NCBI GenBank assembly: GCA_027486035.1
Contig: JAIXPX010000052.1
Coordinates: 1-64,000, forward strand
Direction of reading: 5' to 3'
Length of the DNA stretch: 64,000 nt
Source: Erythrobacteraceae bacterium
Lineage (GTDB): Bacteria; Pseudomonadota; Alphaproteobacteria; Sphingomonadales; Sphingomonadaceae
Shown: piece by piece, positions 1,903 through 61,553 of the stretch
How positions within the stretch are numbered: position 1 is the first letter of the stretch
Layout: each line of letters begins with the position of its first letter
Position numbers and translations under genes: made by a program
The notes under the pieces: model-generated
Seen by the model: only the letters and a program-made list of their open reading frames with translations
Database searches by the model: none
What the model was told of the DNA's origin: nothing

Positions 1903-1918
1903 TGTTTCACGTGAAACA
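1903..1918. other. parS centromere site, perfect copy 1
   Basis: TGTTTCACGTGAAACA matches the widely conserved chromosomal ParB-binding site exactly. It sits inside a 20-bp perfect palindrome (1901-1920). It is intergenic, 22 bp after apt. ParB-parS nucleates the partition complex and SMC loading near the replication origin (established for the site family). Neither parA nor parB is in this window. Confidence 0.9.
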
Positions 1919-1934
1919 TCGCAACCAAACCGTG

Positions 1935-1992
1935 TCTGGCAGGGTGCAGGACGAAGCTAGCAGGGGTCTGGACGAGCCTGGCGGGGGCCTGC
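1935..1992 (+). repeat. Helically phased CTGG-core array beside parS copy 1
   Basis: Six related cores (TCTGG, GCAGG, GCTAG, TCTGG, CCTGG, CCTGC) start at 1935, 1946, 1956, 1967, 1977 and 1988, a spacing of 10-11 bp. The first begins 17 bp after the last base of parS. This is the most degenerate of three such arrays; the alignment with the arrays at 43440 and 61489 is what supports it. No coding potential is evident, and nothing else is recognisable up to mrpA. Confidence 0.55.
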
Positions 1993-19066: not shown

Positions 19067-19082
19067 TGTTTCACTTGAAACA
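19067..19082. other. Degenerate parS-like site
   Basis: TGTTTCACTTGAAACA differs from the parS consensus at one position in the central CACGTG. It is still inside an 18-bp near-palindrome and is intergenic, between the fliA relic and an alpha/beta hydrolase. Unlike the other three sites it has no phased CTGG array on either side. Confidence 0.6.
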
Positions 19083-42162: not shown

Positions 42163-42696
42163 ATGATCCGCCGCGCTGTCTCTTTCCTGTTCCTCGTCTG
42201 GGCGATCGGCTTCCTGTGGTTTGTCGTCGCCCTGCCGCGGCCCGCCGCTCCCGGTGTGACAACCGACGCGGTGATCGTCGTCACCGGTGGCCCTGGCCGG
42301 ATTGCGCGCGGGCTCGCCGTGCTGGAGGCAGGAGAGGCGCAGCGGATGCTGGTGAGCGGCGTCGATCCCGAAGTCCGCCCGCGCGAATTCGCCGCGCAGT
42401 TCGGCGTGCGCCCCCGCCAGATGGCCTGCTGCATCACGCTCGGCTTTGCTGCGGTCGACACCCGCTCCAACGCGGCCGAGACCGCCAAGTGGGTCGCCCA
42501 GAACGAGGTGCGCTCCTTGCGGCTGGTGACGACCGACTGGCACATGCGCCGCGCCGCGGGCGAGCTTGACCGGACGCTGCCCGGCCATGTCACCGTGGTG
42601 CGCGATGCGGTGCCCTCGCAGCCCAATGGGAAGACGCTGTTCCTCGAATATCACAAGCTGATCGCCAGCCGCGCGGCGGGACTGGCCGATCTGTGA
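42163..42696 (+). CDS. YdcF/SanA-like DUF218 membrane-anchored protein
   Basis: 177 aa. One N-terminal helix (SFLFLVWAIGFLWFVVAL) anchors a DUF218 domain: TDAVIVVTGGPGRIARGLAVL, RMLVSGVDP, DTRSNAAETAKW, LRLVTTDWHMRRA. The DxxSNAxET motif and the His of WHM are family hallmarks. Proposed roles lie in envelope integrity or polyprenyl/vancomycin barrier functions. It lies between ftsX and plsC; the plsC GTG overlaps its stop. Confidence 0.85.
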   Translation: MIRRAVSFLFLVWAIGFLWFVVALPRPAAPGVTTDAVIVVTGGPGRIARGLAVLEAGEAQRMLVSGVDPEVRPREFAAQFGVRPRQMACCITLGFAAVDTRSNAAETAKWVAQNEVRSLRLVTTDWHMRRAAGELDRTLPGHVTVVRDAVPSQPNGKTLFLEYHKLIASRAAGLADL

Positions 42697-43391
42697 GGTG
42701 GCTGTTGGCCGCGCTGCGCAGCCTTGCCTTCTATGTGCTGTTCTACGGCGGCAGCGTGTTCCTCGTCAGCGTCTCGGTGATCGCGGTGATTGCGCAGAAG
42801 CGCTGGCTGCGGCCGATCGTGGCGAAGTGGGGACACTGGCACCTTTGGTGCACCCGCAAGGTGCTCGGCATCGCGGTGGTGCTCGAGGGCGAGCTGCCGC
42901 AAGGGCCGGTCCTGATCGCGGTCAAGCACGAGGCCTTCTTCGAGGCGATCGACACTCCGCGCCTGTTCACTGATCCTGCGGTCTTCGCCAAGCAGGAGCT
43001 GTTCCGCATCCCCGGCTGGGGCTATTCGGCGCTGGTCTACGGGCTCATCCCCGTAGCGCGCGAAGAGGGGGCCAAGACCCTGCGGGCGATGCTCGCCCTG
43101 GCGAAGCAGCGCGTGGCGGAGGGGCGTCCGCTGGTGATCTTCCCCGAGGGCACCCGCGTCGCGCAGGGCACACGGCCGCCGCTGCAATCGGGCTTTGCCG
43201 GGCTCTACAAGCTGCTCAAGCTGCCGGTGGTGCCGATCGCGGTCGATAGCGGGCGGCTCTATCACCACGTGATCAAGCGGCCGGGGCAGATCACTTACAA
43301 GGTGGGCGAGGCGATCCCGGCGGGCCTCCCGCGCGAAGAGGTCGAGGCGCGGGTGCACGCGGCGATCAATGTGCTGAACGCCGGGGAGTAA
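42693..43391 (+). CDS. plsC: 1-acyl-sn-glycerol-3-phosphate acyltransferase
   Basis: 232 aa membrane-associated enzyme that adds the second acyl chain in phosphatidic acid synthesis. It has an N-terminal helix (LAFYVLFYGGSVFLVSVSVIAV), block I VKHEAFFEA, block II FAKQELFRIPGWG, and block III VIFPEGTR. Block I reads H-x4-E instead of the usual H-x4-D; Glu may replace Asp, as in some alphaproteobacterial relatives. GTG start overlapping the DUF218 stop (GTGA). A parS region follows its stop. Confidence 0.9.
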   Translation: MRWLLAALRSLAFYVLFYGGSVFLVSVSVIAVIAQKRWLRPIVAKWGHWHLWCTRKVLGIAVVLEGELPQGPVLIAVKHEAFFEAIDTPRLFTDPAVFAKQELFRIPGWGYSALVYGLIPVAREEGAKTLRAMLALAKQRVAEGRPLVIFPEGTRVAQGTRPPLQSGFAGLYKLLKLPVVPIAVDSGRLYHHVIKRPGQITYKVGEAIPAGLPREEVEARVHAAINVLNAGE

Positions 43392-43439
43392 GCGCCACAG
43401 GCCCCTGGCAGGTGGCCGCCGGATGCCCCTTGGCCGGCG

Positions 43440-43487
43440 CCAGACAGCTCCAGGCCCCGTCCAGACCCCGTCCAGACCCCCGCCAGA
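43440..43487 (-). repeat. Helically phased CTGG-core array beside parS copy 3
   Basis: Read on the minus strand away from parS, TCTGG, TCTGG, TCTGG, CCTGG, TCTGG start at 43487, 43476, 43465, 43454 and 43444, a spacing of 11, 11, 11 and 10 bp. The consensus unit is TCTGGACGGGG. Fifteen bases separate the first core from parS. It is the cleanest of the three arrays and lies wholly in the gap between plsC and tyrC. Confidence 0.75.
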
Positions 43488-43502
43488 TCGGGCCACTTTG
43501 CA

Positions 43503-43518
43503 TGTTTCACGTGAAACA
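43503..43518. other. parS centromere site, perfect copy 3
   Basis: TGTTTCACGTGAAACA, within the 20-bp perfect palindrome 43501-43520. It lies between the convergent ends of plsC and tyrC, only 14 bp from the tyrC stop. Same consensus match and reasoning as at 1903. Confidence 0.9.
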
Positions 43519-43532
43519 TGCCGCGTTCCGGC

Positions 43533-44441
43533 TCAGTCGCCGTGGACCCGGCCAAAATCGGGCCGCTCGTCGTCCTGCCCCTGCTCGATCACCGCGCGGC
43601 GGATCGCGCGGGTGCGGGTGAAGAGGTCGAACAGGGTGTCGCCGTCGCCCGAGCGGATCGCGCGCTGGAGGGCGGTGAGGTCCTCGGTGAAGCGGCCGAG
43701 CATCTCGAGCACCGCGCCCTTGTTGGTGAGGAACACGTCGCGCCACATGACGGGGTCCGAGGCGGCGATGCGGGTGAAGTCGCGGAAGCCCCCGGCGGAG
43801 TACTTGATCACCTCGCTCTGGGTCACGTCCTCGAGATCGCTGGCAGTGCCGACGATGGTGTAGGCGATGAGGTGCGGGATGTGGCTGGTCACCGCGAGGA
43901 CGAGGTCGTGATGCGCGGCGTCCATCAGCTCGACCTTGGAGCCGAGCGCGGTCCAGAAGTCGGAGAGGGCGGCGACCGCGGCGGGGTCGGCCCCCTCGGG
44001 CGGGGTGATGATGCACCAGCGGCTCGCGAAGAGGGTGGCGAAGCCCGCCTCCGGCCCGCTCTGCTCGGTCCCGGCGACGGGGTGGGCGGGGATGATGGTG
44101 GCGCCGGGGAGCGCGGCGGCGAGCGCTTCGGCCACCGCCGCCTTGGAGGAGCCGACGTCGCTGACGATGGCGTCCGGCTTCAGCCCCGCCGCGATCGCCC
44201 GCGCCGCATCGCCCATCGCGCCCACGGGGACGCAGAGGATCACGAGGTCGGCATCGGCGACGGCGGCCTCGGCGGTCTCGCACACCGTGCCGACGAGTCC
44301 CCGCGCCGCCGCCCGCTCGCGCACCGAGGCGTCGCGGTCCCAGCCGGTGGTGGCGATCTGCGCCGCGCGCGCCTTGACCGCGAGGCCGATCGAGCCGCCG
44401 AGCAGGCCAAGGCCGACGATGGCGACACGGGCGATGCTCAT
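43533..44441 (-). CDS. tyrC: Prephenate/arogenate dehydrogenase
   Basis: 302 aa. The NAD-binding Rossmann motif VAIVGLGLLGGSIG is at about residues 6-19; IIPAHPVAGTEQSGPEAGF and LVLAVTSHIPHLIAYTIV form the TyrA catalytic region with the key His residues. It oxidatively decarboxylates prephenate or arogenate in tyrosine synthesis. The ATG at 44441 overlaps the hisC stop as ATGA, so the two are coupled. The hisC enzyme also serves as aromatic aminotransferase in many alphaproteobacteria, which fits the pairing. No regulatory ACT domain is present. Confidence 0.93.
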   Translation of the reverse strand: MSIARVAIVGLGLLGGSIGLAVKARAAQIATTGWDRDASVRERAAARGLVGTVCETAEAAVADADLVILCVPVGAMGDAARAIAAGLKPDAIVSDVGSSKAAVAEALAAALPGATIIPAHPVAGTEQSGPEAGFATLFASRWCIITPPEGADPAAVAALSDFWTALGSKVELMDAAHHDLVLAVTSHIPHLIAYTIVGTASDLEDVTQSEVIKYSAGGFRDFTRIAASDPVMWRDVFLTNKGAVLEMLGRFTEDLTALQRAIRSGDGDTLFDLFTRTRAIRRAVIEQGQDDERPDFGRVHGD

Positions 44442-45535
44442 GCCGCCACCCCGCACAGCTTGCGGAGCGTGGCGATGACGTCGGTGGTCGCTTGCGCGGT
44501 GCCGATGGTGATGCGCAGGCTGTTCGGCAGTCCCTGCGAGGGCAGGTGGCGCACGGCGTAACCGGCGTCGGACAGAGCCTCGAGCGCCGCAGCGGCGGTG
44601 ACGGTGCCCTCGAAGTGGACGAGGAGGAAGTTGGCCTCGCTCGGGCTCGCGGAAATGCCGTGGTTGCCGAGCATCGCGATGGCCTCGGCCAGTCGTTGTC
44701 GCTCCCTCGCGTTGTGGTTGCGGCTGCGTGCGACGAAGTCCTGGTCGCCCAAGGCGGCGAGCGCGGCCTTCTGCCCGCTCACCGAAACGTTGAACGCGCC
44801 GCGCATGCGGTTGACGAGGTCGATCAGATGAGCCGAGCCAGTGACCCAGCCGACCCGCTCCGCAGCGAGGCCATAGGCCTTGGAGAAGGTGCGGCTGACC
44901 AGCACGTTCTCGTGGGTGGCAGCGAGGGCGAAGGCCTGGGTCTGAAAGGCGGGGTCGACATACTCGGCATAGGCCTCGTCGATCACCAGCAGCACGTCGG
45001 AAGGCAGGCCTGTGTGGAGGCGGGCGACCTCAGCGGGCGGGAGAAAGGTGCCGACCGGGTTGTTCGGGTTGTCGAGCAGCACCACGCGGGTGCGTTCGGT
45101 CACGGCGGCGAGAAGGTTGTCGACGCTCGCGCCGAAACCCTCGGGCGCGGCGAAGACCGGCGTTGCGCCGATCTTCTGGGCAAGCAGCGGGTAGAGCGAG
45201 AAGGAATAGCGCGACATGAGCACCTCGTCCCCGGGCCCGGCCAATGCCTGGACCGCGCAGTGGAGCAGCTCGCCCGAGCCTGTGCCGCAGACGATGCGGT
45301 CGGGATTGAGCCCGTGCACTTCGGCGATCTTTTCGCGCAGCGCGCGCGCGTCGGGATCGGGGTAGTCGGCCGGGTTGTGCGTCTCGGCCAGTGCCGCGAA
45401 CGCTGCGGGGCTGGCACCGAGCGGGTTCTCGTTCGCCGACAGCTTGACCAGCGGCTTGCCGCTCGCCGACTTTGACTTGCCGGGGACATAGGCGTGGATC
45501 GCGGCGATCCAGGGCTTGGGTTCGGGTCTCGACAT
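44438..45535 (-). CDS. hisC: Histidinol-phosphate aminotransferase
   Basis: 365 aa PLP enzyme of fold type I. Lys219 in [17 protein letters not shown] forms the Schiff base; LSANENPLG at the N-terminus and [24 protein letters not shown] are family motifs. It transaminates histidinol phosphate, and with tyrC probably also aromatic keto acids. Length is normal. It is divergent from metX, with 108 bp between the start codons, where promoters for both should lie. Confidence 0.94.
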
Positions 45536-61457: not shown

Positions 61458-61473
61458 TGTTTCACGTGAAACA
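61458..61473. other. parS centromere site, perfect copy 4
   Basis: TGTTTCACGTGAAACA, starting one base after the P450 stop codon. Same match to the ParB-binding consensus as at 1903 and 43503. The flanking palindrome is not extended here (A before, C after). Confidence 0.9.
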
Positions 61474-61488
61474 CCGTTTCCGCGCGTG

Positions 61489-61553
61489 TCTGGCGGGGGT
61501 CTAAGAGGGGTCTGAAGGGGGCCTGAACGCGGCTGGAGCGGGGCTGGAACGCG
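61489..61553 (+). repeat. Helically phased CTGG-core array beside parS copy 4
   Basis: Cores TCTGG, TCTAA, TCTGA, CCTGA, GCTGG, GCTGG start at 61489, 61500, 61511, 61522, 61532 and 61543 (11, 11, 11, 10, 11 bp). Fifteen bases separate the first from parS, exactly as at 43487. The G-run between cores (GGGGG, AGGGG, AGGGG) matches the other arrays. No ORF covers it. Confidence 0.7.

Follow-up and report, generated by a model that had tools for sequence, protein, structure and literature searches.

Dispersed parS palindromes flanked by a one-sided, helically phased array in part of one genus of Sphingomonadales

Results

parS palindromes and phased arrays in the 64-kb window

The window, that is the whole stretch of 64,000 nucleotides that was analysed, contains a prephenate dehydrogenase gene (PDH_N/PDH_C) and an acyltransferase gene (PF01553) that converge on an intergenic region. 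Between them lies an exact copy of parS, the textbook origin-proximal bacterial centromere, with a phased repeat array on one side only. Two further exact parS with arrays and one array-less copy with a single mismatch are found elsewhere in the window (Table 1). No known RNA family scored above its own threshold in these 64 kb.

Table 1. Positions of the parS palindromes, arrays and flanking genes within the window
Feature	Position	Strand	Remarks
Exact parS, TGTTTCACGTGAAACA	43503..43518	.	14 bp past the prephenate dehydrogenase stop codon
One-sided phased array	43426..43502	-	Core offsets 15, 26, 37, 48, 58 from parS
Second array-bearing exact parS	1903..1918	.	
Array, degenerate units	1919..1992	+	Offsets 16, 27, 37, 48, 58, 69; register nearly that of the 43503 site
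Third array-bearing exact parS	61458..61473	.	
Array	61474..61552	+	Offsets 15, 26, 37, 48, 58, 69
parS with 1 mismatch, array-less	19067..19082	.	Junction shared with an array-less exact parS of G003 (L079)
Prephenate dehydrogenase (PDH_N/PDH_C) gene	43533..44456	-	parS-side neighbour of the 43503 site
Acyltransferase (PF01553) gene	42693..43391	+	Array-side neighbour of the 43503 site, convergent

The original prediction for this locus was that the minus strand carries, after a 15-bp gap from parS, TCTGG cores at steps of 11, 11, 11 and 10 bp. Gap and steps were confirmed, but the letters are less uniform than stated, the fourth core being CCTGG. The same layout had been claimed for the other two array-bearing parS, and there the register is indeed nearly equal while the core letters are more varied (TCTAA, TCTGA, CCTGA, GCTGG, GCAGG and GCTAG are found). 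Because the arrays at 1903 and 61458 use other core letters, a definition by a "CTGG core" is too narrow. Phased cores might also have been as frequent in random DNA; a weight matrix of 5 units, trained on the genome's own arrays (the three in the window included), picked out 3 arrays in the 64 kb, all at the 3 exact parS, and 0 in six Markov-simulated sequences. A separate array model, R1, built from 41 arrays with parS excluded, matched positions 43426-43492 (E 3.3e-12) and 61486-61552 (E 2.1e-13), both arrays being themselves members of the model.

Distribution of parS and arrays around the chromosome

We compared the source draft genome (G000; 2.55 Mb, 52 contigs) with a complete relative (G003; one 3.09-Mb contig); these two genomes also supplied the arrays of R1. 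At most one mismatch allowed, parS palindromes number 61 in G000 (40 exact), occupying at least 24 contigs, and 63 in G003 (52 exact), distributed around the whole chromosome. As anticipated, the array accompanies other parS as well. By a fixed score it is present at 36/51 parS of G000 (51 of the 61 matches were listed) and at 43/63 in G003, and four further one-mismatch parS of G000 outside the 51 each carry it. The array-less sites of G000 (15/51) comprise seven in the origin/parAB cluster and eight elsewhere, and eight of the 20 in G003 belong to the origin cluster; some parS scored as array-less carry weak units. Beside parA sits a parB gene whose product has ParB_N, HTH and C-terminal domains. 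The origin parS clusters are array-less in all three genomes inspected (G000, G003 and the complete genome G021). Overall, origin-proximal location fails as a general rule and holds for the array-less cluster only, since the dispersed sites ring the chromosomes of G003 and G021. Those of G003 occur on both sides of the point opposite the origin, the terminus position being an estimate, and the evenness of their spacing is weak (CV 0.76, random 95% range 0.75-1.27).

Palindrome and array can also occur apart. Among 18 array places of G000 fetched as lying away from listed parS, four have a one-mismatch parS and 14 have none, with at least six mismatches in the stretch searched (L222-L226, L228, L230-L234 and L318-L320; L234 is about 230 bp from a parS, and L223, L230 and L233 are weak). 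As both parS-free arrays and array-less dispersed parS exist, the two parts are separable, and the 14/18 places without a parS-like sequence suggest that the array alone may act.

Several side observations concern the same distribution. One-mismatch parS are commoner among G003 array sites at least 800 kb from the parAB cluster (8/24 vs 1/23, p = 0.02). Orientation domains relative to replication in G003 were considered and dropped, with 23/47 sites co-directional (runs test p = 0.39; 43 of the 47 had passed the array score, and four weak arrays were added manually). One array-less parS (L001, L056, L360, L375) apparently occupies the same place in G000, G003, Erythrobacter oryzae and Erythrobacter sp. 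MSM4, and in G000 and G003 it falls inside a gene according to the gene caller.

Period, register and direction of the array

Position profiles show that the array unit resembles GGGGTCTGGAn, with G-tracts and C-[TA]-[GA] cores recurring at a register fixed from parS. The slope of core distances is 10.72 bp in G000, 10.73 bp in G003 and 10.74 bp in G021 (36, 43 and 25 arrays, respectively), and the A+T profile has its maxima, far over shuffled sequences, at periods of 10.75, 10.70 and 10.80 bp in the same order. With a mean period of 10.72 bp, the cores stay on one face of the helix, and the placement on a single face that had been proposed for the window thus extends to three species. A step of 10 bp now and then keeps the array at the helical repeat, from which a simple tandem repeat of 11-mers would drift away. 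No periodicity was found on the non-array side of parS in G000, G003 or G021. The arrays of G000 are dissimilar in their letters, with a mean identity of 0.41 and a maximum of 0.71 over 85 bp among 36 of them.

The units are directional, with GGG:CCC counts within arrays of 307:32 (G000), 368:56 (G003) and 242:51 (G021). Because the array score itself picked the G-rich side, direction was tested separately. When sites were collected with the parS-blind model, parS lay on the 5' side of the G-rich strand in 16/16 listed matches of G003 and 23/30 of G000, and no listed match of either genome had it on the opposite side; in G021, 10/12 fetched model matches have the palindrome next to the array, again on the 5' side. 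Similarly, a reversed unit scores weakly in 4/114 sites, all four of which are also forward arrays, and both sides of parS score in 2/114. Many arrays show several G-tracts with 7-nt spacers.

Gene context of the array sites

Genes around array sites of G000 and G003 were called with a simple codon-usage gene caller. Among 79 sites, 70 are intergenic, and convergent gene pairs flank 40/70 of these, as compared with 5/25 gaps of at least 100 bp in one 64-kb window that served as the baseline (Fisher p = 0.002). The array-side gene is directed at the array in 57/70 intergenic sites and the parS-side gene at the site in 48/70. The parS-side stop codon is close (median 18 bp from parS, at most 50 bp in 43/48 genes reading toward the site), and the array-side stop lies at a median distance of 112 bp. 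RNA downstream of the end of the array-side gene would be C-rich and G-poor.

A second palindrome variant and the ParB that accompanies it

In the complete genome G021, palindromes that differ from TGTTTCACGTGAAACA at no more than one position number only 3, yet there are 70 array matches. It carries 52 exact copies of TGTTCCACGTGGAACA, distributed around the chromosome; of the 49 listed, the origin cluster next to parB (L321) accounts for seven and other places for 42, and one more is seen in L287. When dispersed TGTTCCACGTGGAACA sites were fetched regardless of arrays, 15/16 carried one. The array core of G021 is also shifted, CTAG and CTAA being commonest instead of CTGG, and the frequency of A at unit position 8 is 0.82, compared with 0.20 in G000 and 0.33 in G003 (statistics limited to units that begin G-rich and contain C[TA]). 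Within G000, G003 and, with the other variant, G021, the predominant palindrome is identical at origin and dispersed sites. As origin and dispersed palindromes of G021 are both TGTTCCACGTGGAACA, this concordance supports a link of the dispersed sites to ParB.

G021 and G000 share 75% identity in ParB, and the ParB proteins of 16 other parS-rich genomes share 78-85% with that of G000, although TyrA of G021 is 91% identical to its G000 counterpart. Its recognition helix carries V190I and M194H, which adjoin but do not coincide with the four specificity positions given for Caulobacter ParB in a published study (PMC7383237); those four positions are not uniquely changed in G021. Near parB, a mixture of the two palindrome variants is seen in several parS-poor relatives, so that ParB may tolerate both and the change in G021 need not be a specificity switch. 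The array-poor genome G034 likewise contains two variant sites. No second full-length match to the chromosomal ParB was found in G000 or G003; there is a single ParB-family match in G003, and G000 has a partial one (E 1.5e-4) besides its full-length match. Additional weaker ParB-family matches are seen in G024, G016, G021, G028, G030 and others, with four in all in G021 and eight in G024, the extra ones of these two being weak (E 1e-13 or worse).

Occurrence across the genus and the order

Among 147 genomes compared, the 141 that belong to the order but not to the genus have 0-4 exact parS each. Within the genus (81 genomes, the G021 variant counted), the palindromes number 4 or fewer in 46 genomes and 9-86 in 35, the richest bearing some 50-80 around the chromosome; dispersal of the extra palindromes was observed in the genomes whose positions were inspected. 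Three or more R1 matches were obtained in 26/35 parS-rich and in 0/46 parS-poor genomes, and array number follows parS number with a Spearman coefficient of 0.78 over the 81 genomes (0.75 without the G021 variant). These array counts are lower bounds, as at most 61 candidates were scored per genome under stricter filters; scoring 150 candidates raises some of them, for example from 78 to 124 in G184. No R1 arrays were found in the four genomes outside the genus that were tested. Overall, among the genomes searched, the parS-rich, array-bearing state is confined to some members of a single genus. R1 matches number 0-2 in nine of the parS-rich genomes, which suggests that dispersed parS do not need the array or that their arrays have diverged from R1. 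Among 11 named genomes, four are parS-rich, namely Erythrobacter oryzae COR-2 (15, 8 of them clustered within 5 kb), Erythrobacter sp. MSM4 (23), Porphyrobacter sp. LE19-388.1B (47) and HGW-Alphaproteobacteria-7 (35), and the other seven have 1-3 parS each.

In array-poor genomes, many dispersed parS are accompanied by an additional half-site, GAAC, placed exactly one helical turn (11 bp) past the matching bases of parS (L338-L357, L358-L363). It is present at 12/20 sites in G034, 6/7 in E. oryzae, 3/8 in MSM4 and 1/7 in HGW-7, and GAAC at other offsets averages at most 0.06 in these four sets; the HGW-7 sites sampled include several CTAG-type arrays (L364, L365, L369). The half-site also occurs at array-less parS away from the origin in G000 (4/8) and G003 (3/12), and at array sites in 1/36 (G000), 1/43 (G003) and 3/27 (G021). 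A likely order of evolution would lead from origin parS to dispersed parS with a half-site and then to array-tagged parS.

Conservation and turnover between species

In G000, 41/51 sites were flagged as lying at most 150 bp from the position predicted by a G003 site. Three of these pairs had low scores and were matched through the element alone; after their removal, 38/51 sites share their junction with G003, comprising 4/7 in the origin cluster and 34/44 of the others. The three other origin-cluster sites paired with a neighbouring copy in G003. Arrays are present in G000 at 27 of the 38 conserved junctions, and for the 24 of these 27 chosen for comparison, orthologous arrays are 46% identical, compared with 39% (sd 8) for unrelated arrays. 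The persistence of palindrome, register and position through this turnover of letters argues for selection on the pattern.

None of the G003 sites corresponds to the site at 43503. Both parS and array occupy the tyrA junction in G000 and in 6 of the 29 other genomes fetched (G214, G184, G016, G212, G014 and G030), and since the element there is found in only part of the genomes, sites also appear to be gained or lost.

Discussion

A putative compound ParB-loading site

Strand direction together with helical phase suggests an activity that binds dsDNA directionally and on a single face, and we read the array as a candidate target of a directional dsDNA-binding protein, or of ParB itself. From these sequence patterns we tentatively propose that the element is a compound, putative ParB-loading site whose array binds a partner confining or polarising ParB; we would put the probability of this class of explanation at about 0.45, and lower for any exact role. 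In such a scheme, chromosomal ParB would load at the dispersed palindromes, and some six to eight phased directional sites on one side of each would serve the second dsDNA-binding activity. A sequence-reading protein, or ParB through a second surface, might cover the array as a cooperative one-face assembly, which, with transcription arriving from both sides, could hold ParB clamps local and one-sided. Many small ParB complexes could then organise the chromosome or partly segregate it without competing against the origin cluster, and the role of the element may accordingly range from confining ParB to chromosome organisation or segregation. A further point speaks against this reading: if the array blocks sliding, the gene on the parS side is left exposed.

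A bolder version, which we regard as possible though doubtful, is a distributed ("holocentric-like") centromere. One ParB would use 50-80 compound sites, each co-read by an undescribed protein that forms filaments or clusters along its phased array, convergent transcription would herd ParB clamps there, and the system would have arisen stepwise from origin parS through parS with a half-site to array-tagged parS.

Alternative readings

The 10.7-bp modulation makes wrapping by DNA gyrase a main rival, since it matches that of the E. coli gyrase motif arms: the array would be an anisotropically bendable arm wrapped where convergent transcription builds positive supercoils, with ParB loading alongside. 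According to a study on gyrase sites, those arms have a 10.75-bp GC modulation and a flexible anisotropic right arm is important in Mu (PMC6379681), figures close to the A+T peaks of our arrays. The location of array sites at convergent 3' ends fits as well, and so does the retention of a pyrimidine-purine step in the common cores despite the change of letters. Bendability, however, is strand-symmetric while the units are strongly directional and uniformly oriented relative to parS, and nothing periodic is seen on the other side of parS, though a one-armed site is conceivable. Moreover, gyrase is universal and the arrays are clade-restricted, and on balance we consider gyrase improbable. A comparably low probability attaches to ParB reading the array itself through a second DNA-binding surface, so that palindrome and array drift jointly. 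G021, which differs in both palindrome and core and has, of the 17 parS-rich relatives compared, the ParB with the lowest identity to that of G000, would suit this idea, as would the GAAC half-site beyond parS in the array-poor G034 and E. oryzae. Yet the unit is unlike a parS half-site, the origin parS of G000, G003 and G021 have no arrays, and the C-terminal domain (about residues 267-315) has no fixed difference between 18 parS-rich and 12 parS-poor ParB, a contrast drawn by parS richness and not by possession of arrays.

With dozens of dispersed sites that a ParB-family protein would recognise, nucleoid occlusion also comes to mind, in which ParB, perhaps with MipZ, would mark the nucleoid as Noc does in Firmicutes. 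Noc sites are not known to occur at the terminus, while G003 has sites on both sides of the point opposite its origin, although one-mismatch sites are commoner far from the origin; since the array would also be left unexplained, we think this less probable than the two preceding readings. The helical phasing further leads us to down-weight two explanations acting through single strands. A Rho-dependent terminator with a C-motif about every 11 nt in the RNA and parS-bound ParB as a roadblock agrees with the C-rich 3' RNA expected where array-side genes read toward the array, but a 10.72-bp phase with 10-bp correction steps is a property of the double helix and superfluous for RNA, the species-wide core shift of G021 is unexplained, and the parS-side gene reading toward the site would go unserved; we hold it to be quite unlikely. 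Folding of the G-rich strand into a G-quadruplex, with GGGG about every 11 nt and loops of 7, is less likely again: several G-tracts with 7-nt spacers do occur in many arrays, but neither conserved loop letters nor helical correction steps would be needed. Similarly unlikely is a functionless mobile or REP-like repeat that carries parS by chance. Many copies in 3' intergenic DNA and the gain or loss at the tyrA junction are what such a repeat would give, but its copies would not be expected to be so dissimilar or to keep their positions between G000 and G003, and one exact composite pattern matched no viral contig.

Relation to described systems

Compared with chromosomal ParABS, the preferred reading of a compound ParB-loading site starts from an identical 16-bp palindrome, parB beside parA and a parS cluster, and departs from it in the dozens of extra sites around the chromosome, most with a one-sided phased array. 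The dispersal of sites for a ParB-family protein is shared with Noc and its NBS; here the sites are parS and not NBS, lie also near the presumed terminus and bear an array, and no full-length paralogue was found in G000 or G003. The gyrase motif, the Mu SGS right arm and BIME-2 share the 10.7-bp modulation and the intergenic 3' location, but our units are directional, have consensus letters, are attached to parS and are restricted to a clade. Iteron-like plasmid centromeres such as parC/ParR and tubC/TubR consist of helically phased direct repeats and so resemble the array in having repeats of about 11 bp beside a segregation function, whereas here many dispersed chromosomal copies are joined to parS. 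REP/BIME extragenic repeats are likewise present in many copies at gene 3' ends; in our case the letters differ, only pattern, register and position are kept, and no near-identical copies exist among 36 arrays of the source genome. In published work parS is confined almost entirely to the neighbourhood of the origin; a second cluster in Caulobacter is tolerated within about 500 kb but carries a cost mid-arm, and a smaller one near the terminus (PMC5815017).

Our literature search, with subscription papers and preprints mostly outside its coverage, returned nothing resembling parS with a phased array, and nothing on parS in Erythrobacter, on parS far from oriC or on ParB in Porphyrobacter chromosome segregation; for parS/ParB in Sphingomonadales it returned one Novosphingobium genome paper. 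The conservation of dozens of parS with a phased array suggests that chromosome-wide use of ParB is feasible, and the combination of dispersed parS with a one-sided phased repeat points to an undescribed mode of chromosome organisation or segregation. The clade offers a natural system for studying the limits of ParB spreading and the tolerance of extra centromeres, and for asking how a palindrome could change at some 50 loci inside one species.

Other motifs at the tyrA junction

In eight relatives (L198, L204, L205, L209, L210, L212, L214 and L218), an identical GAGACACATGAGACACTGTCC motif replaces parS and array 3' of tyrA. Some other tyrA junctions contain sequences resembling GGACAAAG.GACAC..TGTCC. 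The GAGACACATGAGACACTGTCC motif is possibly another dispersed element.
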